A DNA stretch of 64,000 nucleotides from Diaporthe sp. PMI_573 (Eukaryota > Ascomycota > Sordariomycetes > Diaporthales > Diaporthaceae). This document shows, one piece after another, positions 2,238 through 24,641 of the stretch. The stretch lies in the NCBI GenBank assembly GCA_021399435.1, contig JAJTUP010000029.1:434001-498000 (forward strand), in the 5' to 3' direction. The position numbers and the translations under genes are program-made. The notes under the pieces are model-generated. The model was given only the letters and a program-made list of their open reading frames with translations. It made no database searches and was not told where the DNA came from. How positions within the stretch are numbered: the stretch's first letter is position 1; every line of letters starts with the position of its first letter.

Positions 2238-3971
2238 CTAACTCTGATGTTTGTGGAATCGAACGTTGAAGTTGATATGATCAAGCATCCAATACATTGT
2301 TATCCTGGGTAGTCTACCAGGAGTGTCAAGCTCGATGTCGAAATCCCTCAACACAATGGCAAGGAATGTACGAAGTTCCATCATTGCCAGGTCACGGCCA
2401 ATGCAGGCTCTTGTGCCTTTCCCAAACTATTCAACCTCAGCACTGCCGTACATATACAAAGGCAGCGGAATAGGTACTTACTGTCATGAAGCTCTGATCC
2501 ATACGATCAAGGGTTTGCGTATCCGCTTCGAGCCAACGCTGAGGCTGGAAGTCTTCCGCGTTGGGTCCGTACGTAGTTGTATCGCGATGGACGTAGTAGT
2601 GCGGGACGCTGACTATAGTTTCTGGTGGTAAATAATGCCCATCAATACTGAGACCGCTGGAGGGTACAACACGTTCCATAGGAGTCGGATTGATCGGATG
2701 CAATCGTAAGGATTCTTTGATCACGGCAGTCCTGGATTCAGTGTTAGTCAAGACAGAGAACATCGGGGTTTGGGCGCCTACAGCCGTTCGTTGTTGATGA
2801 GATCACTCATATCCGCATCATTACTGCCAGTAGCGCGAAGCTCGCGGACCAGGCTTTCATGCTCGGTGGGGTTGGCCAAAAGGTGGTAGAACACGGTGAC
2901 AATGGCAATCGCAAGATCTGCTGCTGCCGCAAAGCTGCTGCTGTTAGATGAAATAATGTAGTGGCTTGGGTTTGCCCAACTTACAATGCCTCGAAGAGAA
3001 TGTTGATGATTTCATGGTCATCAAGGTCTGCAATCCCATGCTGACCCCGTTCAGCGAGGAGCTTGCATATGAGAAATTTATCGCAGCCATTAACACGGCA
3101 GTCATGTTTCTTGACCTTTTCTTCGATCATCTAAGTCTTGTTAAGCTGGATCTCTCTGTTTCAATTGGCGAACTCACTTTGACAAGCTCTGAGGTTGGGT
3201 CAAACAGAAATGGCATCTTGTGTAAAAAGCCCATAAACCTGCTGTTTGCTAGAGTCCACGAACATATTTCGGGTACCTGACCCATCAGGACGGCAACGTT
3301 GGTAATCGACTTGAAGCCGGAGATGATCCCGCCGAGATCCTCGCCGCTAGCAATGTATCCGTGGGGACGCCCAAACAAAAGGAGAAACGTGAGGTCAAAG
3401 GACCAATAGAACGCCCAGTAGGAGAGATTGATTGACTGGCCCTCCTTGGCGCTGATCTGTTGGGTGAAGTCCTGTAGAGTGCCATAGACTTCGCTCTTGA
3501 AGGATTGTGCGCATCCCGTGAGGTTCCTAATAAGTAGAACCTTAAGGTGGCGCACTTGTTCTACATTTTCTGCAGTCACGACGCTTTCTAATGGTTGGCC
3601 TTGGTATAAGAGACGGAAAACGTTGTAAAATTTGCTCTATCATGGAATTAGGACCAACATCTTCAGATTCGGCAGTGCCAACTTGCCTTTAAATACTGGT
3701 TCTTTGCATCGTAGATGATTGGTATAGCAATGGGGTCCGCTATGGAGATGTGATTGGGACCGATGCGAAGGACAGAGCCGTATTTGCGATGCAGCTTCGC
3801 ATAACGGGTGGGACCATTCCCGCCAAGTAGAAGCCACACTCTATATAGGCCTGAAATAGGTGCTAACACCGGTCCAGGGACTGAATCAAGAGGAGAGGTG
3901 GATAAATGAGTAACACGATAGACTAGGACAGCAAGACAAATTGCCAGTGGCCAGAGAATCGAATCAATCAT
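2238..3971 (-). CDS. Cytochrome P450 (pisatin-demethylase-like class)
   Basis: Six exons (3971-3687, 3636-3178, 3130-2985, 2940-2782, 2731-2482, 2426-2238) join in frame into about 495 residues. The N-terminus MIDSILWPLAICLAVLVYR is an ER membrane anchor. The K-helix ExxR is ESLR, the PERF-like block is FQPQRW, and the haem loop FGKGTRACIG contains the Cys ligand. The I-helix region reads FFAAAADLA and lacks the usual acid-alcohol pair, which may alter oxygen activation. Intron 1 has a GC donor (GCAAGT). The acceptor of exon 4 lies in a CAG repeat, so two extra residues are uncertain. As a neighbour of the MFS and UstYa genes it is a probable tailoring oxygenase. The family is certain; the substrate is unknown. 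Confidence 0.88.
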
Positions 3972-4502
3972 GGCGGGGCTCGGTGTGGTTTGTGTGATAC
4001 AGAAGATGAGCGGTTCAAGTTGTTCCGTACCTGACCGAGTTGTGATGGATGTCGGATTTTCCTCGTACACTAATGCGTGCGATTGGCAGCGCTGATATTT
4101 CAACTGCTGCTTTCACGTGCCTCCCAGGCACTGCATTTCCTAGATTGCAGGGTGGCATTGCATCCCAGCAGCCGAGTCCTATTTGTGGACGGGTCTAATT
4201 TTAGCCTGGAACAGCGTGTTGGCCGAGTGGCCCCCATAGGTAGCCCGCAGCCTGTTGTCTCCAACAAAACGAGCGTACCTAATAAGTACACACTGTGACA
4301 GCATATATTGAACTTGGGGATTTGCATGCCACGGAATTCGGGATACATGTTCACGATTTTCATGAGTAATTCTAATTTCTTCGTGACTGCTTCTGTAATT
4401 TACCTTCTAATACTTGCTCCATTGCTGCGATATGCCTCAGTTGCAATTTCAACCAACCACATTTTTCATGACTAGAATTGTGTTGGATCGATACAGAGTT
4501 TC
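3972..4502. other. Spacer between P450 promoter and MFS 3' end
   Basis: Contains the promoter side of the P450 and the 3' flank of the MFS gene. An open frame continues upstream of the P450 start to 4103 but lacks family character. No other gene seen. Confidence 0.5.
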
Positions 4503-6256
4503 CTACCCACGCACCCTATCCCGTAACATGAGAAGTGACATGGAAATGCTGAAAGCGCCCGCTGCTACTACTAACCAGTAGATGTCGCTGATAGCACTGA
4601 CGATAGCCACAAGCACATCTTGCCTTTCCCCTTCCGAAATGCCGTCAAGGATTCCGCCACTAGCTCCACTAATATATTGCTGAACCGCTTGCCTGGGTAC
4701 GTTTGGAAAGGCCTCTGCGATTCGCGACGTCGCTCGGTTGAGGAAGACACTCCCGGCAATAGTCAAAGCCAAGGTAATCCCCGAAATCTGACCATAACCT
4801 ATGAAAGCGACCGTTCTAGGGATCTCGGGGACAGATATGGTGAGCTGCGCTACTGCATAGCTTGTCTGGGCAAATAGTCCACATCCTAACCCTGCGAGTA
4901 TAGAATACCCGTAGATTGCGCTTGGACTGGTGTTGATTGTAACCGTATGAAGAAGAACGCCCCCGATTAGTGATAAGATGCTGCCGACCAGATACCAGGG
5001 GAAGTAATATCCAATCTTGTTCAATAACGCTCCGCTCAAGATAACCCCAGTGACTTGGAAGAAAACGAAAGGTAAAAGGCGAACTCCAGCTTCCAAGGGA
5101 CTATCGCCTCGGGCGAACTGGAAATATATGGGAATGTAATATAGCGGGATGTGAACAACACACATAGCGGATGCTATTTGGGCAAAGAGAATGGTCATTT
5201 TCTTGGATCTCAGGTACCTCACAGGAAACAGTCGTTGGTCTTTAGTCGTAAAAGCTGGAATGGCTTGTTGTGTAATGAATAACAGCCACAGGGTGCCAGA
5301 GCAGGCAAAGAGTCCGATGATCGGTCCACTCGACCAAGGGTGGACACCACCACCGAAGGAGACTGCCATGATAAGTGTCGTCAGAGAGCCGGCGCTTAAT
5401 ACAGCACCAACCCAATCAAGGTTTTGTACCCTCACCCAGAGGCTTGTCCCCGCTCCAGGATTGTGCGACGGCACCAGAAGTATGTAAATCGGCGCCATGG
5501 CGGCGCCAACACAGATATTCAGGTAGAATGACCACCGCCAGGTTGCAGAGGACTCCGCAAACGCTCCACCAACGATTGGACCGAGCCTACGTCTGGTTAG
5601 AAAGCGGACCAGATTCGCCGGCCGGATCACTTACACCGTGCCAACTCCCCAGGCCAAGCCAACCATGCTCAAGTATAAAGGACGTTCAGCTTCTGAAGTC
5701 AAAACGGATATAAGATTCATGGCCCCTATGTATAAATTGGCGCCCCCCAGGCCACAGACAATTCTACCCACGATGAGTGCATTCATACTGGGTGCTGCGC
5801 CGCACACCGCCGACCCAATGTCGAAAAGAATGACACCCACGATGAACAGAGTCTTGTTGTCGAAGAACATATATAAGTTGGTCCTGGATCTAGTCAGTGC
5901 CGTTATGCGCACTTGCCGGGGAATCTTACCTACAGAAGAAGATTGAATGAGATCACCCCCAGCGGATAGGACACAGAGACCCAGGGCATCTTTTCTAAGT
6001 CACCCAATGACTCAATGATCTTTGGCTGGACATCAGCTACAATGGTATTGTCGAGAGCAAATAGAAATATAGAGAAGATCAGCGAGCCGAAGACGAGCAT
6101 CCACGACCCTTTGCTCATTCGCCGAGGGGGTGAATGGTGCGGCTCTGATCCCCGCCCGCTGATAGCTTCTTCATCGGTGTCCCTTTCTTTTGTAGGTGCC
6201 CGTGGTGGCAACGTCTCCGTATTCATCTGTGGGATATGATGTGTGGGTGGTGTCAT
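4503..6256 (-). CDS. MFS drug/toxin exporter, 14-TMS type
   Basis: Three exons (6256-5934, 5883-5635, 5586-4503) give 551 residues. A polar N-terminus of about 50 residues precedes the first membrane span. FALDNTIVADVQPKI is the DHA2 signature of helix 1, IVGRIVCGLGG follows, and GVGTVLGPIVGGAF is antiporter motif C, reconstituted exactly across intron 2. WRWSFYLN comes next, and the later half is rich in hydrophobic spans, as in 14-helix exporters such as fungal toxin pumps. It would export the product of the neighbouring cluster from the plasma membrane in exchange for protons (inference from position). Both introns have phase 2 and use GTAGGT and GTAAGT donors. No lesion seen. Confidence 0.9.
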
Positions 6257-6900
6257 AGTGAATAGAGGATGGTTGTTGACCTGCGCCGTATGCTGTGATT
6301 TCCTGGAGGACAGACTCGCACAACTGAGTCTACGTTCGTGACTGGGATGAATTTCTCAAGGTGCTCCCGGAATACCCCCACAACCGCGCGAGGCCACATG
6401 TTTGGGGAAGTGAGAAATGACGGTTGTGCCGCGGGTCACTGGCTCATGCAGTGTAACATCATCGACATGCCAGTGTCATGCCACAGGGCTTGGGGCGGTT
6501 GGCGTTGGGCGGTAAGGCGTTGGGCGGTAAGGCGTTGGGCGGTAAGGCGTTTTACTACAGGTTGGTTCAATTCGAGGCTAACTACAGCGCGATTGTATAC
6601 TGCGCAGTACGCAGCAGTGTCTCCGTCTGCCGCAACACAGGGGTATTACTTCCCGTAGCCCCATCTCACGAAAAATTCTGCTACCAGGACTGCGTTGGGT
6701 GAGGGTTACAATGAGGTATGTATTCATGCAGGATCTACAAGACATGCATTAGGCCAGTTGGCCAAGTGTACTGCCCAGTGGGGGCTGGAATGAGCCTCGC
6801 CCACCCGCATGCCGATCCTTCCAAATTTGTATCTTCGTCATCTTGCGATCCAGCTGCAAACCGATGCCTTGAAAGCCCTCCACATCTCAAACCTCTCCTG
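6257..6900. other. Intergenic region with minisatellite
   Basis: Between the MFS start and the end of the small secreted peptide gene. It holds the 15-bp tandem repeat at 6501-6550 and no supported gene. Confidence 0.5.
6501..6550. repeat. 15-bp tandem repeat, 3.3 copies
   Basis: The unit ggcgttgggcggtaa is repeated exactly at 6501-6515, 6516-6530 and 6531-6545, followed by a partial copy ggcgt to 6550. A further imperfect GGCGGTT lies just upstream. It is in the MFS promoter region. Confidence 0.95.
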
Positions 6901-7195
6901 TTACTTGTCGTTGATTGCGTGGTAGGCGTAGACGACGTCTTCATCGCCATCCGTGTCGGGATATACCACATAATCGTCATTGTCTATGAATCTTTTAGCC
7001 TGGGCCCTACGTGACATAAGAAATGCACTGAATCCCACCTGTAGTCTGCATCCTGTCTGCAAGAGATCCTGTTCTCATGTTAAAGACTGGTACATGGCGC
7101 GACATCCATCCCATGTGGGACTTACCAGCAGGGATTACGGCTGCAGCGAAGGTTACGCTTCCGAACGCAAGCATCAAGATCGCAAACGCTTTCAT
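6901..7195 (-). CDS. Small secreted peptide, candidate RiPP precursor
   Basis: A hand-built two-exon model (7195-7126, 7052-6901) gives 73 residues. Exon 1 has a strong CCACCATG start and encodes a clear signal peptide (MKAFAILMLAFGSVTFAAA). The donor GTAAGT after codon 23 is strong; the acceptor chosen (GACAG) is the one that keeps phase. Exon 2 carries two dibasic sites, SRR and AKR, and after AKR a 29-residue acidic, Tyr-rich tail with YVVYP and VVYAYH surrounded by Asp/Glu, ending in NDK and TAA. Secretion signal, Kex2 sites and acidic Tyr-containing core are the hallmarks of ustiloxin/phomopsin-type precursors, and two UstYa-family genes lie 1 kb away. It has one core rather than many repeats, which is unusual. 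An internal 39-bp stretch could also be removed without shifting frame. It may instead be an effector-like protein. Confidence 0.55.
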
Positions 7196-8167
7196 GGTGG
7201 CTTTTCTGCTGAGTTTCAAGATGTCCGTGTGCAATTTTTGAGAAAACTGACGATCAAGCGAGAAGATAAAGATCGAAGAGTTGGCAATTGTCACAAGGTC
7301 ATGCGTAGGGGGCCAGGGCACCGTTGGAGTTTTATGGCCCCAGAGTCCGGTACAAGGGCCGATCTTCGCCTGCGCCGCTCTAATTAGTGCATAGGACGAA
7401 GCCCAGCGAACGTCTGCCTCCCTCGGTACCCAGCTTCTCGTGTCCGCCCACCCAGTAAAGAAACATAGATGCAAGGGCTTTTACCAAAAAAAATGTATGT
7501 CTCGGACTTGGACTGAAACCAGTACTTCGCCCCCAGGGTTACTTCGCCTTCTGCGGTCTTGGCGCAGTCTGCATGCGCCCCTTAAAGTACCGCTTCAATA
7601 GGAAATTAGATTATCATCATAGTTATAGGGTCAACATGCTGATTAGTTCGAACAGTACTTGAAAATATTAGAGGTTTACTCTCAAACGCAAGTACTGGGT
7701 AGGCGGATGTTGGCTGAGGAGGCCTTGTCGACACGTTGGGTCCAGGGTGGCTGATTGTGACGTGTAAGCGCCGGTCAGACAGCCGACTGTGACCCTACTT
7801 TTGACAAGTGATTGATTGCGACACGGCCAAGGACGAGCGGCAAAGCGCTGAACTCATCATGGCACATCCTGGTCTGACCTCAGATGCGACTGCGACCCTA
7901 CACAGTACCTTGGTAAGACATCGTGACACGAACTTGCCAAGAGCTGAACCCATCATGATGCCGTGTTGGTTGCCTGCTGAGGTAGGACCACACAGTGCGT
8001 GCTCGTCGGTCTCCACAACCCAGCCGCCTCGGGGGCTGCTTTTGCCAGGGCGCCGGGTGAAAAACATGGATGCCCACCCAAAATCATGCCCGCTCAGTGC
8101 GTACATGGTAAAACATCTTCAGCCTTGGTAAGATTGACTGTTGGACTGACGCGAGCACTGGAAAATC
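7196..8167. other. Divergent promoter region between peptide and UstYa-like gene 1
   Basis: About 970 bp shared upstream of the small peptide gene (minus) and the first DUF3328 gene (plus). No coding frame here shows family character. A divergent arrangement would allow co-regulation. I see no certain regulator site. Confidence 0.45.
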
Positions 8168-9101
8168 ATGTCTTCGCACGCGAGGTTGAGCGAAGACAAG
8201 ACACCGGAAGACGAGCCTTTTCTTCCAAATGGCCATCCGCATGACGAATCGGAGTCTTTTTCAGATCGACGGAAAATTCAATTCAGCAGATCATCATTCC
8301 TTGTATTCGTGGTATTGCTGTTGTCTGCAAACACAGCCTTCATATTGGCCACCATCCACTTCATAGGACAACGATGTTCCATTGCCTCGGCGTTACGGCG
8401 TGAGAAGAAGCCCCGTCCCCATCATCACGCGCTCTTCACTGACTCACCATAGCACTGCCAGACTTGAAGTTCAACTACATCCCGAAGAACTATACTGATT
8501 TCGAGATCTCCCCTTTTGCCGGCCCGCCCAGCCCTTCTGTAGATTCAGCATGGCATCAACTGCTGGAACAGACAAGCCTCAGAGCATCCGCATCGGAATT
8601 GGAACTTAGCGATCAAGTATCTGTCGAGCTTCCCGAAGGAGGAGGCTACATGGTCTGGCTTGGAGTCTTCCACCAACTGCATTGCATTGTATGTCTCCGA
8701 TACTAATAATATCTCCTCTCCCAGCTGTTCTGATCCGTTCAACAGAAGATGCTTCGTCAATGGAACTACCGCCATCATTATCACCCCAACGTTACCGAGC
8801 AGGACAGATCGCATTGGGATATCCATGCAGGTATGTGCTTCAGATTATGGACTGTCAAAGCCACTCATTAACTTGCGTAGACCATTGCCTCGACATACTT
8901 CGCAGTGCTGCTATGTGCCATGCAGACACCACATTGACCACGTTTGGTTGGGCAGATCAGCCCAAGCCTATGCTCAACACGAGACCGATAGAGCACCGCT
9001 GTATAGACTGGGAGGTGCTGATGGGCTCTATTGAACACAGAGTGATACCACGAGATGAGTTGGATCGTTTAGTGAATCCCAAGACAAACCAGTCGCAATG
9101 A
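8168..9101 (+). CDS. UstYa-like (DUF3328) oxidase 1
   Basis: Four exons (8168-8399, 8453-8688, 8746-8830, 8881-9101) give 257 residues. A charged N-terminal tail is followed by one membrane span near residues 45-68 (FLVFVVLLLSANTAFILAT). The lumenal part carries both diagnostic HxxHC motifs: HQLHC at the end of exon 2 and HADHC, which is created by the splice between exons 3 and 4. A conserved MCHADTTL block follows. In ustiloxin, phomopsin, asperipin and cyclochlorotine pathways this family performs oxidative cyclisation, hydroxylation or chlorination of peptides. The gene is convergent with a second member 400 bp away. All exon phases fit and no lesion is seen. The reaction here is inferred. 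Confidence 0.92.
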
Positions 9102-9502
9102 AATTTGTAAATAAGCCATGTGGCACAGAGAGTGGATTTGACAATTCCGATAGTGGAGTGATAGAACATGTTATGGACGACTTTGATTTCAACTTTCCCC
9201 TGGATGTTCTTGGGGCATAATACCCTTCTCCAGGCGAGATGGGAATGTTACAGATTGCATCATTGACTCGAAGAAAACCTTGATTCGTGCCAGCTGGAGT
9301 AATGCTCTCTTTTTCCCTCATGATTTGACACGAACGCCACCAAGCCACTGAAATACTTTATTCTAATGTTCTACAGCAATGTATTAAATACGCATCATGG
9401 ACTTGGCCGTGTACGCTTGGGTTCAGGTATCTGCTTGACCTGGAGTAAATAAGTCTGAACATCCGCCCCTTTGCTGCTTCGTTGCTGTAATACTCGCTCC
9501 TC
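9102..9502. other. Terminator region between the convergent UstYa-like genes
   Basis: About 400 bp of 3' flanks of the two convergent DUF3328 genes. No gene seen. Confidence 0.5.
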
Positions 9503-10272
9503 TCAAACAATCTGCTCGACATGCTGCTTGGCCTGTTGTGTACTCGTCCACGTCTTCAGTTGCTCCCAATCGACGCATGTATGAGGTGTTCGAAAGCCAT
9601 GAACACCGTTTATTTCCTCATCCACAACTTCTGGTGTTGTGTCTCCATGGCACATGAGGACCTGTCGGAGAAGATCAATGCAATGGCGCATGTGACTCGT
9701 CTGTATGTCAACTGGCAGATCTTCATCCGATATCTTCTCTCCTGCGGATGCCGCTCGTTGGTTTGCCCAGTACCCTCCACGGAGGCCGTTCTACTTTACA
9801 TCAGATATGAACGGGTAATGTGGGCACTGATCGCAAGACTTACAAGACAATGTAGCTGGTGGAACACAGAGAACGTTGACCGCGTTGGTGCGATGGTGGG
9901 GTGTACAAAGAAACCACCCTCCGCGGGAAAGATCTCACGCCATGCTCGATTGGTGTGTTCGGAAGGAGGATATGAAAAGCTCCTGTTATATTGGAATGTG
10001 TGCGTTTCCAACGCCACTTCAATGCACGTTAGGATTCACTGACAACCCGAGAAGTTGAAATGAGCAAACGTACGAGGAAGCGCCCCTATTTCGGAAGCAC
10101 GAGCAGTTCTAGAAGAACCCAGCAGATAGCCTACAGATCCAGACACGGATATCATGAACGCCCATAGGAAAAGCTGAAGGCAAGAAGGTCCTTTTCGTCT
10201 TGGTGCAATCTCTTGTGGGTCTCCTTCTGAGATAGGGAGTGGAATGTAATGTGAGATCCTTTGCAAATGCAT
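9503..10272 (-). CDS. UstYa-like (DUF3328) oxidase 2
   Basis: Three exons (10272-10074, 10016-9844, 9790-9503) give 219 residues. A short basic N-terminus with PRRK precedes one membrane span near residues 30-50 (LFLWAFMISVSGSVGYLLG). The lumenal part has AWREIFPAEGGF, the first HxxHC (HQLHC), GGYWAN, the second HxxHC (HMRHC), LLRQVLMCHGDTT and a C-terminal CVDWEQL, in the family order. Intron 1 was placed at GTACGT with branch CCTAAC; a nearer apparent donor would leave only a 30-bp intron. The start at 10272 gives the usual short cytosolic tail, but an in-frame ATG 33 bp upstream is possible. It is divergent in sequence from gene 1 and so is probably a partner enzyme, as UstYa/UstYb are. 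Confidence 0.92.
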
Positions 10273-10802
10273 GATGAGAAATGGTATAGCCAAGGTTATC
10301 TGCACCGCTTCAAAAGAGTAGAGACGATGAAGTTATCCGGAAAGAAGCAGGTATTCGTTGAACTGCCCATACCTCGACATCGATCAGCGCCGCCAAGCAC
10401 AGTGCGCCAGTTGAGTTGCGACCTGACGAATGAATACATGTGCTGTCTATCTGACATCGCGGCTGAGCTGCAATGCAACCGTTGGCGGGATGTACAGCCC
10501 ACCCTCCGGCAGTCGGGGATGCAGGATCGGTGCCTGATATTACTACCAACACTCAAGGTGTGATGTACTACAAAAGGAGCGCATACCATCCGCGCCTCGT
10601 TTTATGGGTTCGCACTTATCCTATTAGGGCCACAGTGCGTCTGTCCAAAAACCACACCATACCATGCCCGCTTGCACATTCCGAAATGCCAGGGTGCCTA
10701 GGTAGACTTACAGGAAAAGGTGTCGTACAACCTCTTCAATCCCAGCACATGAGAGGAAACGCATCGCGATATACTGGCAAACCAAACCTTCAAGACGACG
10801 CC
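10273..10802. other. Divergent promoter region, UstYa-like 2 and methyltransferase
   Basis: About 530 bp between divergent starts, likely a shared promoter. The methyltransferase frame is open upstream of 10803 but the added residues look non-coding. No other gene seen. Confidence 0.45.
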
Positions 10803-12184
10803 ATGTCAAACCAAGAAAGCAGATTTGCCGAACTCGGCAACATCATCCAGAACAGAACGAAAGAAATTCAACAATTCCTCTCTTCTCAGGGGTTATCTTC
10901 CCCTTCGTTGGCGGCAGATGCAGGCGCAGATCTCCCCCTTCCGCACACGCTTCAAGGATCTCGCGATGAAATCTTGCAAGCATGTACGGAACTGCAGGCT
11001 TTGGCCGAAGGTCCAAGGATGCATCTCACCAGACTCACAAGCCCTACAGTAAGCAAACCACAACAAGCTCAAGTTATCGTTGCTGACCGCTGGCAGATGA
11101 ACATCATGATGAGCATACAGGCGATATATCGCTATAAGATTGCCAGCGAGTTATCCCTGAGCGAACGGGTATCTTTCAACGAGCTTGCCAAAAGATGCAA
11201 GATTGACGAGCAGGATCTTACTCGGCTCATGCGACTGGCCATCGCAAACCACATCTTCATTGAACCGCAGAAAGGGTTCATTGAACATTCGGCAATGTCC
11301 AAACTCTTAGCGACAGATCCCTTATTGCATTCGTGGATAGGCCTGGTCTGCGAAGAGATGTGGCCACCTCAGCAGCGAGTGGTCGAGGCAATGCAGAAGT
11401 GGCCTGGCTCAGAGGAACCGCAACATACCGCATACTGCCTTGCAAACCCAGGCATGACCTCATACTTCCAAGCAATGGAATCAAGCCCCGAGAGGAATCG
11501 ACGCTTCGCCGAGGGTATGAGATACCTGCAGTCAGCACCCGCCTTCGCCATTGAGAATCTATTCAACGATCTTGGATGGGATGCGGCGCAAACGCCCAAG
11601 GTTATGGTCGACATAGGTGGTTCACTCGGCTCCATTGCTACCCAGCTTCTACGAAGATTCCCCGCGCTGAAATGCGAGGTTCAAGACTTGGCCGAGACGG
11701 TGGCAGAGGCGCAGGTCCCGGACGATCTCGAAGGCCGACTGGAATTTCGAGCGCACAATTTCTTCACGGAGCAGCCACGACGAGACGCTGATGTGTACTT
11801 CATGAGGTCAATTCTCCACGATTGGTCTGACAAGTATGCTCTCCAGATCTTGAGGGGCATTGTGCCTGCTCTGAAGGACGGAGCCACGGTCATCATCAAT
11901 GAGGTTTGCTTGCCGGAGCCAAACAGACTCCCGTTCTACCATGCACAGCTACTCCTGTAAGCAATACAGCAGCAAATAGGCCTCATATGCACCTAGCTAA
12001 CATACTCTTTAGCGGCTACGACATGGCGATGAAGATGAATTTCAACTCTAGAGAGCGCGATGCAGATGGATGGGCAGAGTTGCTGAGATCGGCTGATCCA
12101 CGACTTCAGATCAAGAGGATTGCTTGTTCCCCTGGGTCTATTCTATCTGTCATAGAGGTCTGCCTGGAGGATCTTCCAAAGTGA
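10803..12184 (+). CDS. SAM-dependent O-methyltransferase
   Basis: Two exons (10803-11956, 12013-12184) give 441 residues. A helical N-terminal dimerisation region precedes a winged-helix segment (EQDLTRLMRLAIANHIF). The SAM-binding motif VMVDIGGSLGSIA corresponds to the family DxGGGxG, with Ser in place of one Gly. ADVYFMRSILHDWSD contains the catalytic His-Asp region of plant-type/sterigmatocystin-type O-methyltransferases, and GATVIINEVCLPEP follows. The second exon restores the expected MAMKMNFNSRERDADGW end. It would methylate a hydroxyl, for instance a phenolic Tyr of a peptide, in the cytosol. It is divergently arranged with UstYa-like 2. The start at 10803 was chosen as the first ATG giving a natural N-terminus. 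Confidence 0.9.
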
Positions 12185-13128
12185 GAAGGCGGGCAGTGCT
12201 CGTACAGTGCGCAACGAATGGTCTTGGGTGGGGTCTTACCGCAAAAGTACTAGCTCTTGGATGATATTGATGAGTAAATAATCGAGAGACAGAGAAAGAA
12301 AGAGAGAGAAAAGACTGGATCCTATCCCCACATTGCTGGTGCTACCCGCTTTCTGGGATGGTCGAATGATCAAGGTGTTTTTTTTGGCCCCCAACGTTGT
12401 GTTACCCGCGGGGCACTAGGCAGCGGTATATTGGAATTCCGGTGCGCCTTGCAGGCAGCCCGGAGTGGATATCGCAGATCGTTTGCCAAGTCTGTTCATG
12501 CTTACGGTGTCACATCGGCCCGGTACCACCAACGCCTGCCAAACTCAAATGCGCGCATGTGGCACAGAGCGGTACAGAGCGGCACAGCCCTATCTTCTCG
12601 TCTGCCACAGCTATCCGATTGGATGGGAGCTAAGCGGTCAAGTCCATGCGACAAGGTGACATAGAATCTTCGCGGGCACCAACGGTCACATTGGGCATGC
12701 ATGCAACCCGGCCATCTTTCACAGCCTCGCGGCCTTCCATTTTCAGCACCAAATGACCCGCTCGCAGGTGGGGTTCCGGGCATGCTGACATGCAGACACC
12801 CGTCGACGACTACCGAGATCGAGAGCTTCACTCTCTGAGCTGTCTTAGAGTTGATTGGCTACGCAAGCGAGTACCAACTCACCGGTTGCACCAGCACCTG
12901 CAGGATGCCTGCATCATGTATTATCTTAGAGGACCATGACACGGGCTGGAGGAATCCTTCGGGGACAGTTGCTAGCGTCAACCAGAATTTCCCCTCCTTG
13001 CTGATGGTACGCCGATCAATTGTCAAGGGCACGATGAGTATGAAATTTTGGGATATGAGAGCCTCCCCCGTTCTGGTCTGCCACAATCCGGTCTGCCAAA
13101 CTCTGCGCGTCACACGAGATCATTCGCA
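12185..13128. other. Intergenic region after the methyltransferase
   Basis: No gene seen in 940 bp. A purine-rich GA tract lies at 12285-12317 and an imperfect repeat of ggcacagagcggtacagagc type at 12556-12590. Confidence 0.45.
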
Positions 13129-14499
13129 ATGGCCATATCACCCGTGGATACAGGCAGCCTTGTGGCCAACATCGTTCTTCCAATTCTTGCTACGATCGTC
13201 GTTGTTCTTCGGTTCTACACTCGTAGGACCAAGGGCCAACCTTGGAAGTGGGACGATTACACAATTTTGATTGCTCTGGTTTGTCAACCCCGCCAAGACC
13301 TGTTTCGTTTCCTCCGTTGACGATGAACAGTTTTTCTGCTTTGCACTAGCCGGCTCGGAAATTTATGCTGCCAGTACAGGACTTCTGGTTGCAGCATGGG
13401 AGGACCTCGACGCTTACGTGCGCTTCAGAAAGGTATGCGTCACCAGGAGCATTAGGGAAACGCAATACTAATCCTTGGCCAGCTGGAGTTCGCCGACATC
13501 ATTCTTTGTCATGTTGTTTACGGCATGACAAAAGTCTCGGTGGTTCTCTTCTACAAGAGGATATTCACTGTCGGCCGTACTACCATCGCAACAAACATTC
13601 TCCTTGTGCTCATCAGCCTCTATATTGTGGTGACCTTTTTTGTAAGTACAGTCCGCAAGGGGTTTATGAGTACAAGCTAATGCTTGTTGTTGAGCGTAGA
13701 CCGTCCTCTTCTGCTCTCGAAACATCTCAAGCTATTGGACCACTCCCCCCAATCTCGACGGCACGCAGTATGTCATGGTTCCCGGGACCCTCATCTTGAT
13801 ATACGCCGTTCTAGACATTCTGTTAGATCTGGCTGTTCTCGGTACACCGCTACCGGCAATTCGGAAATTGAAGCTCAGCTTCAAGAGACGAATCGGCGTT
13901 GCCGGCACCTTCCTTCTCGGAGCCTTGTATGTCTGTCCCATTTCCTCCGGCGATACGCGTTGTCTAATGAATGGCAGCTGTTTGGTCTGCTCCTGTGTGA
14001 GACTTTATTATGTGGACAGGTTACTTGACTTCCGAGTGATGACTACGGATGAACAAATTGGTGAGTGCCTATGCCTACCGCTGCAACGTGTTTACGAACA
14101 TTCGCTAAGGCATATAAACCAGAGGTCTCAGCGGACAATATCCTATGGGCACATATAGAAGCCTACGCCTCTACCCTAGCGGCTTGCCTGCCAACCCTGG
14201 CCCCCCTTGCCCAGAACATCCACATTGACGGTGTCTTTGAGAGCATACGATCGATGTTTTCCACTAGGCACTTCAAGTCAACCATCAAGTCAACCAGCCT
14301 GCTTAACGTTCGTGGCAGCGAAGAAGGCGGCAGTGCGGTACCTTCTCAGGAATCAGACAGAGCCGCGTGGCTGACGTACAATTCTGACCGTCTCCCTGCA
14401 AAAATGGCTGTCTACCAGAATAGTGTTCCTCCCTTTGAGCCCGGAAAGGAGTCTGGCGCAGTCATTGCCCACCAAGATGTCGAGATGCAGCGGTACTAG
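13129..14499 (+). CDS. SAT4/rhodopsin-like integral membrane protein 1
   Basis: Six exons (13129-13278, 13331-13432, 13483-13641, 13700-13926, 13978-14060, 14123-14499) give 365 residues. It has about seven hydrophobic spans followed by a polar C-terminal tail of roughly 130 residues. Family features are RFYTRRTKG-PWKWDDY after helix 1, LEFADIILCHVVYGMTKVSV, YKRIF, and VLDILLDLAVLGTPLPAIRKL. Members of this fungal rhodopsin-like domain family are common in mycotoxin clusters (for example SAT4), but their role is not settled: a receptor, transporter aid or membrane scaffold have been suggested. Intron 1 uses the uncommon donor GTTTGT, which is shared with the paralogue at 37 kb. It lies between two probable tailoring genes. 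Confidence 0.85.
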
Positions 14500-15144
14500 T
14501 AATTAGGCTTTCCACGGACAAATTCTGTCTGCACTGAGAAAACGTTCATCCTGTAGCACGAGGTGGATGTTGTTGGGATCAATTCTGAAGCTCACCTCCA
14601 GGATTTGGCCAGGGATCGTGTGAAGCTTCTGCAGTCTCTCACCACAGGCTTGGCAACCTTGGAACCTGCCATGTAAAATATATTCGTGCTTTGCTATAAT
14701 GTCCATCGTTCTATTGGGCTTTGAAATTGGGTCTTTCCCCAAATTTTGTGCCCGGGAAAGTCTGTCACTGCGATCTAATCGCGAGGGCTCTTTCCAGTAA
14801 GCTTTCGTAACCTGGGGAAAGAAGCTCTCTCAGAGCTGTACGACCTGCCTGCTACCGGTGACTTGTTGGGCACGGCCCATCAGATCCCCGCGTCCGAGCC
14901 CCCAACTGCTGGCCTTCTACGCATACCTCCAGTGGGAAGTTATGCACACACCCCTCTGTTCCAGGTTGGTCACCTAACCGTCAGCGCGTTTTAAGAGCAC
15001 GGCCATCCTCCAACTGCAGCGTGCACAGAGCTGCCTCTTCCACCTGGGCACCACAACCTATCGTACCCATTACTGCACTACTGCACTGCTGCACTCGTTC
15101 CCCATAGCTGTCGCCCACCTTTCTGGCCTCCTTTGCGTTTCAAG
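14500..15144. other. Intergenic region before the second P450
   Basis: No gene seen. A short imperfect repeat of actgcact occurs at 15073-15096 just before the P450 start. Confidence 0.45.
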
Positions 15145-16730
15145 ATGGGCTACAAGTTGAATTCAGCTGCTGCCCTACTACTTGTCGTCATTCTCTACTT
15201 CATTCAGCAGCGCCAACGCCGGAACACCGCCCGGCAGCAAAGGGGATGCGCTGCTCCCGTGCAGCACCAACCCGCGGAGCCCTTCTTCGGCCTGGACTTC
15301 ATAATGAAGACACATCAGGATATTCCCTCACTACACCGCTTCCATCAAGATCACGGTCATTCTTTCCAGCTGAATACTCTCATCAGTCTGCCTACCATAT
15401 ACACAGTCGCTCCCGAGAACATCAAAGTTATCCATACTGACGACGACAAGTGGGGGATTGAGCCCCAAAGATTGCCAGGGATGGAGTTTTTCTGTGGCAG
15501 GGGTTTCTTGACCATGGATGGTGACGTCTGGCAGCATGCCCGAAGGGCACTGAGGCCCTCCTTTGCCAAAAGTAACTTGCTAGACCTAAGTGTGCTTTCG
15601 CGGGAAGTAGACAAGGTCGTGGCAAATCTACCGAAGAATGGTGGTCCCGTGGATCTCCAGCCGTTGTTCTATGTCACGGTATGTTTCTCATTCTGGCCTC
15701 TCCTACTTTATTACATCCCACTGATGAGATACAGTTTCTGAACACGTCTTTGAATTTTCTCTTGGGAATTTCCCCTGACGACACAAGTAGTGAGGCTCCG
15801 TGCACCTCTGACGAGTTCGTCGATGCCTTTCACGACGCGCTCTTCCTGACCATGGTCCGGATGATTCTCGGGCCCGTTTGGAAGCTCTTGCCCCAGGGAA
15901 GGTTTCTCCGCGTCTGCAACACCGCTCATTCATTCCTGAACCATTATATCGCCCAGGCCATTGGCCAAACAGGAGGAGCATCGGACTCCGGCCTAGCTCA
16001 GAGTAAAAAGCGCAGCCTGGTGCAAGACTTGTCTCTTCAGTCCGATGATCAGGGGTTCATCAGGAGTCAGGTTCTGCAAGGCATGATGGCATCCCAGGAA
16101 ACGACATCATCCCTACTCGGAAACGCCTTCTTCCTTTTGTCCCGTCATCCATCTTATTGGGACCAAGTACGGAACGAAGTCCTCGATAAAGGCGACATGT
16201 CCGACTTTGACACGCTCCTGAATTCCAAAGTCCTGCAAAACATTCTCCTGGAAAGTAAGTATTTGCAGGTCCCTGAACTGACAGCCACTGACTAAATTTC
16301 AGCTCTCCGTCTCTACCCGGTGTTCCCCCTCATGGGTCGAATCGCCCTCTGCGATACGGTCCTTCCGGTCGGCGGTAAGCCCGATCTCAATGCGCCCGTA
16401 TTTGTACCGAAGGGAACGAAGGTGGAAGTCGGACAGTATTCTCTGCATCGTGACCCGCGCGTCTTTGGAGAGGACACAGAAGCGTTCCGGCCCGAGCGTT
16501 GGGACAGTATCAATCCGAGCCAGTGGGAGTTCATGGCCTTTGGTGGGGGCAGCAGAGCATGCCTCGGGCGCCAGAAAAGCCTGGTCGAGGCCGCCTACGT
16601 TCTTGCGAGGCTGGCGCGTCATTTCCCGAGGCTGGAGAGTCGAGACGACGAGGATTGGAAGGGCGACATGAAATTGACCTGCAAGAGCGCCAATGGATGT
16701 AAGGTTGCGCTGTATGAAGCTAGCAGCTAA
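15145..16730 (+). CDS. Cytochrome P450 (CYP52/CYP63-like class)
   Basis: Three exons (15145-15678, 15735-16254, 16303-16730) give 493 residues. The N-terminus has a short anchor (AAALLLVVILYFI). GVDLQ-type motifs, DGDVWQHARRALRPSF near residue 135, the I-helix MMASQETTSS, the K-helix ETLR followed by LYPVFP, FRPERW and the haem loop FGGGSRACLG follow in family order. The layout, including the WQHHR-like block and MGR after LYP, resembles alkane/fatty-acid omega-hydroxylase families. The I-helix has QETT in place of the usual G-x-D-T-T, with Gln and Glu substitutions. It is the last gene of the candidate cluster. The substrate is unknown and cluster membership is inferred from position. Confidence 0.9.
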
Positions 16731-21262: not shown

Positions 21263-24200
21263 TCAAGCCGTGGGTCGATCCCAGCACTCCTCAACCCAAT
21301 ACTTGACACACTTCGCAAACAGTTCTGCCCACTCATGCCGATCTGCCACCCACGGTGATACTCTACATGTCTTAGTGATAGCCAAGGCGGGCTCGCTTAA
21401 TAAGGGGTGACCCTCTACCTCAACTCTTCCATACCGTCTTCGGAAAAAGTCTAGCAACTTTCTTGGCGGGTTGCTTGCAACATCGGGGTCCGAGTCCACC
21501 AAACGCCGCAACCACTCACGCTGCGGTGCCAACTCGCAGGGGATGCCGTACTGAGCAAGGACTTCCTTGACGGCTGGGGCGAAGTCGCTGTTCCACCTCA
21601 TCGGTACCGCGCTGCTTACATTGAAATAAGACACCGGAAGCAAGGGATCGTCTCGCTCGTCGGCGTCGGCATCACACAGCGCCACATCCGCGATGGCAGC
21701 TCCCGCGACATCGGCGGGCAGCCAGAAATGCTCATCATGGACCACGCCGTCGCTTGCGGCCTCGATCAGAGGCAGCACGCCAACCGTCAGCGCGCTCTGT
21801 GCGACGGCGGGGTACGCCTCGCTCGCCTTCCAGCGCCCGAGCCTTGTGTCGCCCACGACCTGGCCGAGGCGCGCCACGCGGACGGACTCCAGGCCGTGGC
21901 CCGGGTGGGCCGCCGCGGCGAGAATCTCCTCCGCCACCCACTTGCTCTGGCCGTAGCCCATGGGACCCACGCTCTCCCACGGGTAAGGCTTTTCCAGTAC
22001 CTCAGGGCCGGCGTTGAGGACGGTGGCGATGCTCGAGACGAAGGTGAAGGCTGGCTTGGGCCGGAGGTTCGACCTCAGGGCGAGGCTGATGAGGTGATGG
22101 GTGGGCCGGATCGCCTGGGCTTCGAAGCTCTGGAAGCTGAGATTAAAATTGACGGGCCAGGCGTTGTGGATGAAGTGAGTTACGGTGTTGATTATCAGCG
22201 AGTAGGAAGGGTTGCTGGACGCAAAGAAACCATTTGGGTCAGATAGGTCTCCTGGGCACGCCACGACCTTCTCGAGCTGCACCGCAGAGAGGTCGGTCAG
22301 AAGTCCGGCGTCACTCAGGGCCACGTGCAGTCGTGCAAGGCCGTCGTGACGAGTTTGCGCGCGGACGAGACATAGGATGCGCTCTACATCTGGGCGTGAC
22401 AGCAAGGAGAATAAGAGGTGGGCGCCAACCTGGCCGGTTGCACCCGTGAGGAGCTACGAAACAACATATCAGCAGGCGTCAGTGGTTGCTTGGTTGGAAT
22501 AAGGTAGGTAAGGAGTTGAGGAGCAAAACAATACTTACCACAGTCTTCGCCTTGGTTGGAGCATTCACGGCTTCTGCACTAGGCTCAGTGGATGCGAAGT
22601 TGCTGTATTTCTTTACCATCGCCCTTGCCAGTTGTTCAAGATCGATTTGCTCTGAGTGCACATTGTTGCCAAGGTGCAAACGCAGCACATGGTCACCGAG
22701 AAGTGCGACCGTTGGATAGTCAAATACGACGTTCGTCGCTAGCGATATGCCGTGGAGATCAATTTCTCTTTGAATCCGGCTGCGAATATTGCTGGCTTGC
22801 AACGAGTCCACGCCGAGATCAAAAAAGTCTGCGTCGATAGATAAGTCGCCCAAGCCTTTCGTCTCATCAACAGCTCTGCCTTCTGATGTTGAGATGTCAT
22901 GTGCATCTTTTGATCGAATTTCGTCCTTAACGATACCTGAAACGATGGCAAGCACCTCATCATGTGACATTGGCACCTCTGTGACAGATTCTTTGAGTTT
23001 TGAGCCTGACCTGCCTGCATATAGCCTCTCGATATCCCCTTCCATCTCCTTGAGGAATGCCGAGCGGATGACGGTGCCTTTATCCGTCGCTGGGAACGGT
23101 GTACCTGCTTCCTTCACAACGATCATGTCCCTTGATATTCGAGCGTATGCCGGGACTCGTGAGTTTCCCAAATCGACACTAGGACTGATGGCCTTCATAA
23201 ACTCTGCGGGAGGGAGAGGGGCAGACGAAAGAGACTTGATTACCACCACACCGAGGGCCTCTTGTCCGGCCCCAAAGACAACAGCGGTGGCAACCTCTGA
23301 ATTGACTTTTAACGCATCCTCAACAGGGATGGGGTCGGCCTTCTCTCCATTGAGCATCACAATAATATCGTCCTTCCGGGCGGCGAACTTCCACAAGTCT
23401 GGTATCGTGGGGTGACGTTGAAACAAATCCTTGGTACCATACGACCCATCAGGTCGGTCCGAGAGAACCTTTTGTTTCAATCCCGGCCTAATCACGAGGT
23501 GATGTAAATCCTGCAAGGCGTGGCTAATCTCAGGTTCAAAATGGAGATACGGCTTGGCATGAGGCAAAGGCGTGACCCAGCTCCACAGCCATCTGTCAGC
23601 CGGCGGCTCCATCAAGGCGCCGCATTCGGTCTGTCCGTACAGATGAAAGATATTCCCGCCGGCCGCGACAATCTTGTCCCCCAAATCGTCCGGTATTGCT
23701 GACCCGGCATTGATGACTTGTCTCAAGACACTGAGTCTCTCCAGGCCACCATCCGCCTCGACCAGGAACTTCAAAGTGTACGGAACGGTAACTAAGGCCT
23801 CAGAACTCGTGGCATCTAGACAGCCGAACACGTTGGCTGCGGTTACGGGCCGAGACGCGTTGAGGAGACTCAGACGGGTGCCACTGACAAGTCCGCGGAG
23901 CAGTGTGGCGAGGCCAAAACTGTGAAAAAGTGGCAGCGTCGAAAGCGTGTCGACTCGTGGAATGCGCCGCACAATATCACTGGCTTGGGTGAGCCAAGCA
24001 GATGCAGGGAGAGGCACAGGCTTGGGAAGGCCTGTCGTGCCGCCGCTGTGAATGATGAAACCCGGCGCCGGGTCGAAGCACAACGGCCTGAAGTCAGGGC
24101 TGTCGATGGTATGACACTCCCGGTCCAAGAACTGAGCGTCGATCATTGGTAGAAGAGTGAAAGACTCTGCGAGCGAGCCGTTCTTCTGCAGTCTTTCGAG

Positions 24201-24641
24201 AGTGGTGGAAGATGGACCACTGGCAATGGCGATATCACACCCTGTCTCTTTGAGTAGGTGTATATACCCGGGATCTGCTAATCGTGGAGAAATAAAAAAG
24301 GTGGTGATTCCCAGCCGTTGAAGAGAAAGAAATGTCAGGTAATACTCGAGGCTCGAGATCCCAACAATTGCCACCACCAGTTTCCTTTGGTCTAGCCGGT
24401 CATCATGCTCCAGGCCCAGTCCACCAAGCGCTTTCGCAGCATAAACTGCTATTCGACGGGTAAGATGGTCCAGCTCGGTACCGGTGTAGTTGACAAGGTC
24501 TGTCTCATCCTTGGGGTAGGAAATGAGTGGTCGATCCGGGTGCGTCAGAGCCCTCGTTTCGAGGACATCGTTCAGAGTTGTGAACAATTTCAAGTCCTCG
24601 TGGTGAGGTTGCTCTACCTGGGGGACGCCAATGCTTCCCAT
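21263..24641 (-). CDS. NRPS-like carboxylate reductase (A-T-R)
   Basis: Two exons (24641-22539, 22453-21263) give 1097 residues with adenylation, thiolation and reductase domains and no condensation domain. The A domain has IIHSGGTTGLPKP near residue 200 (AMP-binding loop), HLYGQTECG, GTKDLF and a C-terminal TDKGTVIR with the conserved Lys. The T domain has DFFDLGVDSLQASN with the Ser for phosphopantetheine. The R domain begins with LLTGATGQVGAHLL for NADPH and has the YGQSKW Tyr-Lys pair of the extended SDR fold. Such enzymes activate an aryl or other carboxylic acid as AMP ester, load it as thioester and release it as aldehyde or alcohol. The single intron falls exactly between the T and R domains. 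It is intact and cytosolic. The substrate cannot be read with confidence. Confidence 0.92.

Follow-up and report, generated by a model that had tools for sequence, protein, structure and literature searches.

A putative UstYa-associated peptide locus in Diaporthe sp. PMI_573 with a conserved, single-core precursor

INTRODUCTION

The dikaritins (ustiloxin, phomopsin, and asperipin-2a) are the closest described systems to the locus reported here, a candidate gene cluster for a ribosomally synthesized and post-translationally modified peptide (RiPP) at positions 2238 to 16730 of a 64,000-nucleotide stretch of the Diaporthe sp. PMI_573 genome (83.7 Mb, 217 contigs; G000:C140:434001-498000, hereafter the window). 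Like the dikaritin clusters, it places a putative secreted-type precursor beside UstYa (DUF3328) proteins that carry both HxxHC motifs, along with a methyltransferase and a major facilitator superfamily (MFS) transporter, and the core holds a tyrosine within a Y-x-branched residue pattern. Unlike them, it has one core in place of Kex2-separated repeats, its dibasic sites are unconserved, no tyrosinase is found in the window, and the conserved core is a 27-residue tail (DNDDYVVYPDTDGDEDVVYAYHAINDK) that is nearly fixed across fungal classes. A first-pass annotation had described a dikaritin-type cluster with a Kex2-processed precursor. We consider it probable that this is instead a RiPP locus centred on a precursor with a single core, in which trimming of the leader does not rely on a conserved Kex2 site and the UstYa pair oxidises the tail. 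The peptide and its relatives are called here a single-core UstYa peptide family, a variant unlike the repeat precursors.

Other groups of systems are comparable as well. Kex2-processed repeat proteins (KEPs) with DUF3328 neighbours likewise combine a small secreted precursor with nearby DUF3328 genes, and POI2-type KEP peptides can persist across genera and serve development (PMC7329392); the peptide described here is not a repeat protein, so that a KEP search would miss it. The repeat-free lichen UstYa clusters (clans R1 and R2; PMC12048977) also have UstYa genes without a repeat precursor. Repeated cores are presented there as typical, with “a single core peptide” left open for two lichen clans, and, unlike for the window locus, no precursor is named for R1 and R2 in the available part of that paper. 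UstYa pathway surveys seek Kex2-separated repeats or known precursors; a single-core precursor with a nearly fixed 27-residue tail is a direct sequence handle for repeat-free clusters. Five strings from the tail had no occurrence in the open-access literature searched, a scope outside which most subscription papers fall, including the phomopsin paper, and, among the papers listed for UstYa, DUF3328, dikaritins, and single cores, none names such a precursor in its title or at the start of its abstract; an earlier description is possible.

RESULTS AND DISCUSSION

The precursor tail is conserved across fungal classes

Searching 5.8 billion proteins with a 73-amino-acid (aa) model of the peptide returned 13 matches with E-values down to 5.9e-10. 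One, P0013, is the window's own read-through open reading frame (ORF) and 12 are relatives, from five named isolates (Ophiobolus disseminans, Periconia macrospinosa, Hymenoscyphus fraxineus, Periconia digitata, and Mytilinidion resinicola) and seven further sequences. This search and the one with UstYa1 were limited to proteins 0.55 to 1.75 times the query length. The tail relatives bear out the small peptide gene that the first-pass annotation had called. It has no Pfam family, and only its own two exons match within the genome at E<=10, indicating a single copy. A signal-like N-terminus is present in the window peptide and its relatives, as judged by eye.

In an alignment of the query and 11 relatives (n = 12; P0013 and P0007, a shorter version of P0005, were excluded), 21 of the 27 tail positions were invariant, and pairwise identity of the tails ranged from 81 to 100%, with a mean of 92%. 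K27 occurred in all 11 sequences that reach it, P0001 being partial and stopping at D26. The five leaders compared (the window's and four others) shared 6 to 14 identical columns of 32 to 37. Diaporthe belongs to the Sordariomycetes, Hymenoscyphus to the Leotiomycetes, and P. macrospinosa, O. disseminans, and M. resinicola to the Dothideomycetes, so that the named sources of the tail, Diaporthe included, span three classes of Ascomycota. This conservation across classes suggests a shared biological role. An apparent internal tandem repeat in the tail (DNDDYVVYPDV / DGDEDVVYAYH) did not exceed chance (1544 of 20000 shuffles). Peptide relatives were also sought in viral contigs, where 35 pattern matches gave 0 confirmed cases, and in prokaryote genomes, where 53 pattern matches included two confirmed Fictibacillus stretches (46% over 26 residues) that were taken as chance.

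The peptide is co-located with UstYa relatives in other fungi

Match lists were compared for the peptide, UstYa1 (60 matches), and UstYa2 (74 matches), the measure being a shared contig rather than gene distance, with contigs of identical size taken as the same contig. Four of the five other named fungi carried the peptide and a relative of UstYa1 or UstYa2 on one contig: H. fraxineus (peptide and UstYa1, contig of 1287859 bases, with the consecutive tags HYFRA_00006120 and HYFRA_00006119), P. macrospinosa (peptide and UstYa1, 771562 bases), P. digitata (peptide and both UstYa proteins, 3687698 bases), and O. disseminans (peptide and UstYa2, 1578855 bases). Because the tail is conserved and is co-located with UstYa relatives in these fungi, a ribosomal product, as first proposed, is well supported.

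UstYa1 and UstYa2 matches shared a contig in eight named isolates (Lachnellula cervina, L. suecica, Paraphaeosphaeria sporulosa, P. digitata, Botrytis aclada, Xylaria sp. FL1042, Xylariaceae sp. FL0594, and Xylaria longipes) and on two other contigs of 1710 and 25800 bases. Relatives of UstYa2 also occurred in lichen fungi (P0076, P0086).

Comparison favours a splice model with the dibasic sites of the window outside the precursor

The first exon of the peptide gene is followed by a GTAAGT donor at 7125, and three acceptors preserve both the frame and the whole tail. Acceptor 7073 yields 80 aa, 7052 yields 73 aa with RR and KR, and 6983 yields 50 aa with the tail straight after VIPA, exon 1 then supplying the first base of the core exon's first codon. 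Six relatives (P0002, P0003, P0004, P0005, P0009, and P0011) resemble ORFs that read through the intron into the core exon. Five of these six have LT, the in-phase product of a CTRAC branch site, at most 9 residues before the core; shuffling gave a mean of 0.74 and reached five in 1 of 20000 shuffles, a figure that serves as a guide only because motif and span were chosen after inspection of the sequences. LT preceded the core in none of the four spliced-looking named relatives. The LT of the read-through relatives suggests that an exon boundary in this family falls immediately ahead of the core, which favours acceptor 6983, and hence the 50-aa precursor, over 7052 in the window; GCTAAA lies just upstream of 6983. 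Under the 6983 model KR falls within the intron, and the dibasic sites of the window are probably intronic.

A dibasic pair precedes the core in one of the five named relatives (KR, P0006) and in 2 of all 12 (P0006 and P0011), with single Arg residues before the core in other relatives. As far as these sequences indicate, dibasic processing is not a conserved feature of the family, and the dibasic sites of the first-pass annotation were not confirmed.

Two UstYa proteins with the predicted layout of the copper enzyme CctR

Both UstYa genes were spliced by hand. UstYa1 (exons 8168-8399, 8453-8688, 8746-8830, and 8881-9101) carries the motifs FHQLHC and HADHC, and UstYa2 (exons 10272-10074, 10016-9844, and 9790-9503) carries FHQLHC and HMRHC, so that the reading of two UstYa proteins with both HxxHC motifs was confirmed from the exons and by Pfam. 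Over all 219 residues, the hand-spliced UstYa2 does not differ from F5883DRAFT_129171 (Diaporthe sp. PMI_573), and relatives of UstYa1 reached 68% identity. Further conserved cysteines are C195 and C223 in the UstYa1 family and C171 and C196 in the UstYa2 family.

AlphaFold2 models of UstYa2 (P0074; mean predicted local distance difference test [pLDDT] 75) and of P0014, a relative that represents the UstYa1 fold (mean pLDDT 84), both start with a helix of some 30 residues and place one HxxHC on each of two further helices. In CctR, a copper-dependent DUF3328 enzyme, the HxxHC motifs likewise lie on two helices behind an N-terminal helix, and the protein is a dimer with disulfides, a two-copper centre, and dioxygen dependence, with a lumenal domain in a topology offered there as a proposal (PMC12435403). 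In terms of AlphaFold2 secondary structure and alignment positions, the pair has this CctR-type layout, in which HxxHC(x)nHxxHC spans two helices that follow a putative membrane helix, and extra conserved Cys are common to both. One difference is that CctR hydroxylates a non-ribosomal cyclic peptide (PMC12435403). By analogy, UstYa1 and UstYa2 would be oxidases or cyclases of the secretory pathway, a route that a precursor with a signal peptide would also take. Solved relatives of UstYa were sought with single sequences (best E 0.018, a proteasome maturation factor), with profiles (none, and E 0.5), and by fold with Foldseek (none at E<=0.001), and none of the matches was convincing.

At the UstYa2 C-terminus (about 9503-9526, minus strand), VEQIV is retained in seven of nine other relatives compared, the exceptions being P0082, which is partial, and P0089, which ends earlier; this hints at a conserved contact at the end of the protein. 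Among the matches, UstYa2 of this isolate has an annotated protein, though the peptide and a near-identical UstYa1 of the isolate have none, and the peptide gene may be absent from public annotation.

Gene content of the cluster

From left to right the gene models and Pfam give P450, MFS_1, peptide, UstYa1, UstYa2, Methyltransf_2, Fung_rhodopsin, and P450 (Table 1), which agrees with the enzymes, transporter, and rhodopsin-like protein called in the first pass, the first P450 as a partial model. The remaining exons of this P450, which carry GKGTRACIGRDLA and run to the stop, were read by eye and lie outside the Pfam score. The open frame of the MFS transporter reaches beyond its modelled start. 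Cluster membership of both P450s, the MFS transporter, the O-methyltransferase, and the rhodopsin-domain gene is putative, being based on position.

TABLE 1 Features of the candidate peptide cluster, in positions of the window
Feature	Position	Strand	Basis
Cytochrome P450	2238..3971	-	Partial model 3971-2778, Pfam p450 E 2.1e-16
MFS transporter	4503..6256	-	Pfam MFS_1 E 2.6e-33, 499-aa model from 6100
Precursor peptide gene	6901..7195	-	Exon 1 7195-7126 (signal-like) and core exon
Core exon	6983-6901 favoured (7052-6901 in 73-aa model)	-	27-residue tail and stop
UstYa1 (DUF3328), 257 aa	8168..9101	+	Pfam UstYa E 1.4e-43
UstYa2 (DUF3328), 219 aa	9503..10272	-	Pfam UstYa E 1.9e-25
O-methyltransferase	10803..12184	+	Pfam Methyltransf_2 E 3.4e-26
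Fungal rhodopsin domain (SAT4-like)	13129..14499	+	Pfam Fung_rhodopsin E 6.7e-36
Second cytochrome P450	15145..16730	+	Pfam p450 E 2.6e-48

No nonribosomal peptide synthetase (NRPS) or polyketide synthase (PKS) was seen among the modelled genes within 2238-16730, as had been claimed. Outside the cluster, at 21263-24641 (minus strand), an NRPS-like gene spread over two open frames combines an adenylation and peptidyl carrier protein (A-PCP) part (AMP-binding, phosphopantetheine site) with a reductase domain (NAD_binding_4). The left flank holds an aldo/keto reductase. Just beyond the window, at about 7598-9247 of the adjoining stretch (L013, G000:C140:424001-434000), lie ORFs that look histone deacetylase-like by eye, so that a housekeeping region seems to lie next to the cluster.

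Comparison with dikaritin clusters and other explanations

The five-gene definition of dikaritins quoted in PMC12048977 was used for comparison. The window holds multiple UstYa proteins (two, both above the Pfam cut-off and with both HxxHC motifs), a Methyltransf_2 protein with a predicted methyltransferase role, and an MFS_1 protein with a predicted transporter role. Core repeats separated by Kex2 sites are missing, with no KR repeat in the window and one copy of the core, and of 57 exon-level tyrosinase matches genome-wide none lies in the window. The system thus probably works like a dikaritin pathway, yet it departs from the definition in its unrepeated core and in tyrosinase.

These departures bear on the explanation closest to the first-pass annotation, in which the 73-aa precursor is cut by Kex2 at the RR and KR before the tail and gives a short, ustiloxin- or phomopsin-like cyclic Tyr peptide. 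In its favour, the 73-aa model has an open frame and a good donor, P0006 likewise has KR before the core, Y-V-V resembles YVIP (PMC7329392), and the UstYa pair, methyltransferase, and MFS transporter are all present. We nevertheless regard it as unlikely, since the dibasic pair is missing in four of the five named relatives, there is no tyrosinase match in the window, and what is conserved is the whole 27-mer rather than a core of 4 to 6 residues. The core is moreover unrepeated, while the same scan for KR-separated repeats, which took in the window and 20 other stretches of the genome (19 around UstYa matches and one upstream of the window) and, reading unspliced frames, gives a lower bound, detected KR-repeat precursors in two UstYa stretches, L023 (unit SAEEPGPGYGLKR) and L024 (unit YEGDTEDDIKR).

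A second explanation, to which we give a similarly low, if anything slightly lower, chance, is that the tail acts unmodified as a conserved secreted signal or effector-like peptide and that the neighbouring UstYa proteins have another substrate. Such extreme conservation of a whole tail would be unusual for a toxin core, and the cluster encodes a protein with a 7-TM-type domain. Fungal pheromone precursors are secreted peptides, almost all without accompanying DUF3328 genes (PMC7329392); the co-location of this peptide with UstYa relatives in four of five named fungi, from two other classes, argues against the idea. It is highly improbable that the UstYa pair acts on a non-ribosomal product, such as one made by the NRPS-like A-PCP-reductase gene, with the peptide as an incidental neighbour. 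Although DUF3328 proteins have roles in NRPS and PKS pathways as well (PMC12048977) and this gene lies about 4.5 kb past the last cluster gene, other genes separate the two, and the peptide keeps its UstYa company elsewhere, with neighbouring tags for peptide and UstYa1 in H. fraxineus.

Proposed mechanism and chemistry

In the reading that we prefer, oxidation of a single-core tail by the UstYa pair, a short precursor of signal peptide, variable spacer, and single 27-residue tail from its own exon would enter the secretory pathway. In the organelle lumen, the tail would meet the two membrane-anchored UstYa proteins and be oxidised by them, a cross-link or other oxidation of Tyr/Val (YVVY and/or VVYAY) being the likeliest form. 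Removal of the leader would not depend on a conserved Kex2 site, and the product would be exported. What the sequences show directly is a set of intact genes, the conserved tail, and its co-location with UstYa in other fungi; from there we infer expression, secretion, trimming, and modification with its chemistry, as well as any part played by the two P450s and by the methyltransferase, transporter, and rhodopsin-domain proteins.

Within the tail, Y5-V6-V7-Y8-P9 has Y5, V7, Y8, and P9 invariant and V or I at position 6. In ustiloxins and phomopsins, whose cores are YAIG, YVIG, and YVIP, cyclisation joins Tyr to the Ile two residues on (PMC7329392), and Y5-x-V7 has the same Y-x-branched spacing. 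Through Y-V-V, the core thus bears some resemblance to the known type, which the first-pass annotation had not seen in it. Invariant Y5 and V7 with V/I between them are what a bond between these two residues would predict. As the last 14 residues are the most constant, a link in VVYAY, or a recognition role there, is just as likely, and between cross-link and hydroxylation we make no confident choice.

Several observations weigh against the preferred reading. Constancy within the tail is highest in those last 14 residues and not in YVVY, and by eye the four spliced-looking relatives have longer spacers than the 50-aa model. In M. resinicola the peptide is present with no UstYa match listed on the same contig, the UstYa2 match listed for H. 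fraxineus (P0098, 46%) is on a different contig, and, of the eight isolates with both UstYa matches on one contig, seven have no listed peptide match, P. digitata being the other. These seven cases may reflect overlooked small genes or true absence; the former is plausible given the missing annotation of the peptide and UstYa1 in the present isolate itself. Homologue searches covered the peptide and both UstYa proteins.

Together, the tail and its UstYa neighbours suggest a conserved modified peptide that searches for repeat precursors would miss. More tentatively, and with less confidence than in the preferred reading as such, the product could be the whole 27-mer or its nearly invariant last 14 residues (DEDVVYAYHAINDK), retained by distant Ascomycota not as a variable toxin but as a conserved signal or a ligand for metal. 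It would then found a single-core class of UstYa RiPPs that lack Kex2 repeats, and precursors still missing from some repeat-free UstYa clusters may belong to this class. Should the whole tail serve as substrate, it would be far longer than the known short UstYa cores.

Other UstYa loci in the genome

Three other loci of this genome also have UstYa matches. L023 (G000:C113:275000-284900, minus strand, from about 8159) holds a canonical precursor of six KR-separated copies ending in GPGYGL near UstYa genes and is likely an ordinary dikaritin-type cluster. L024 (G000:C142:58000-67900, minus strand, from about 2921) holds a second KR-repeat precursor, in which YEGDTEDxxK occurs seven times, close to several UstYa matches, and a tyrosinase match lies on the same contig at C142:79386. 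At G000:C112:889126-921579, several UstYa matches have tyrosinase matches between them (892689-893529 and 894882-895602), an arrangement that resembles ustiloxin and phomopsin clusters.

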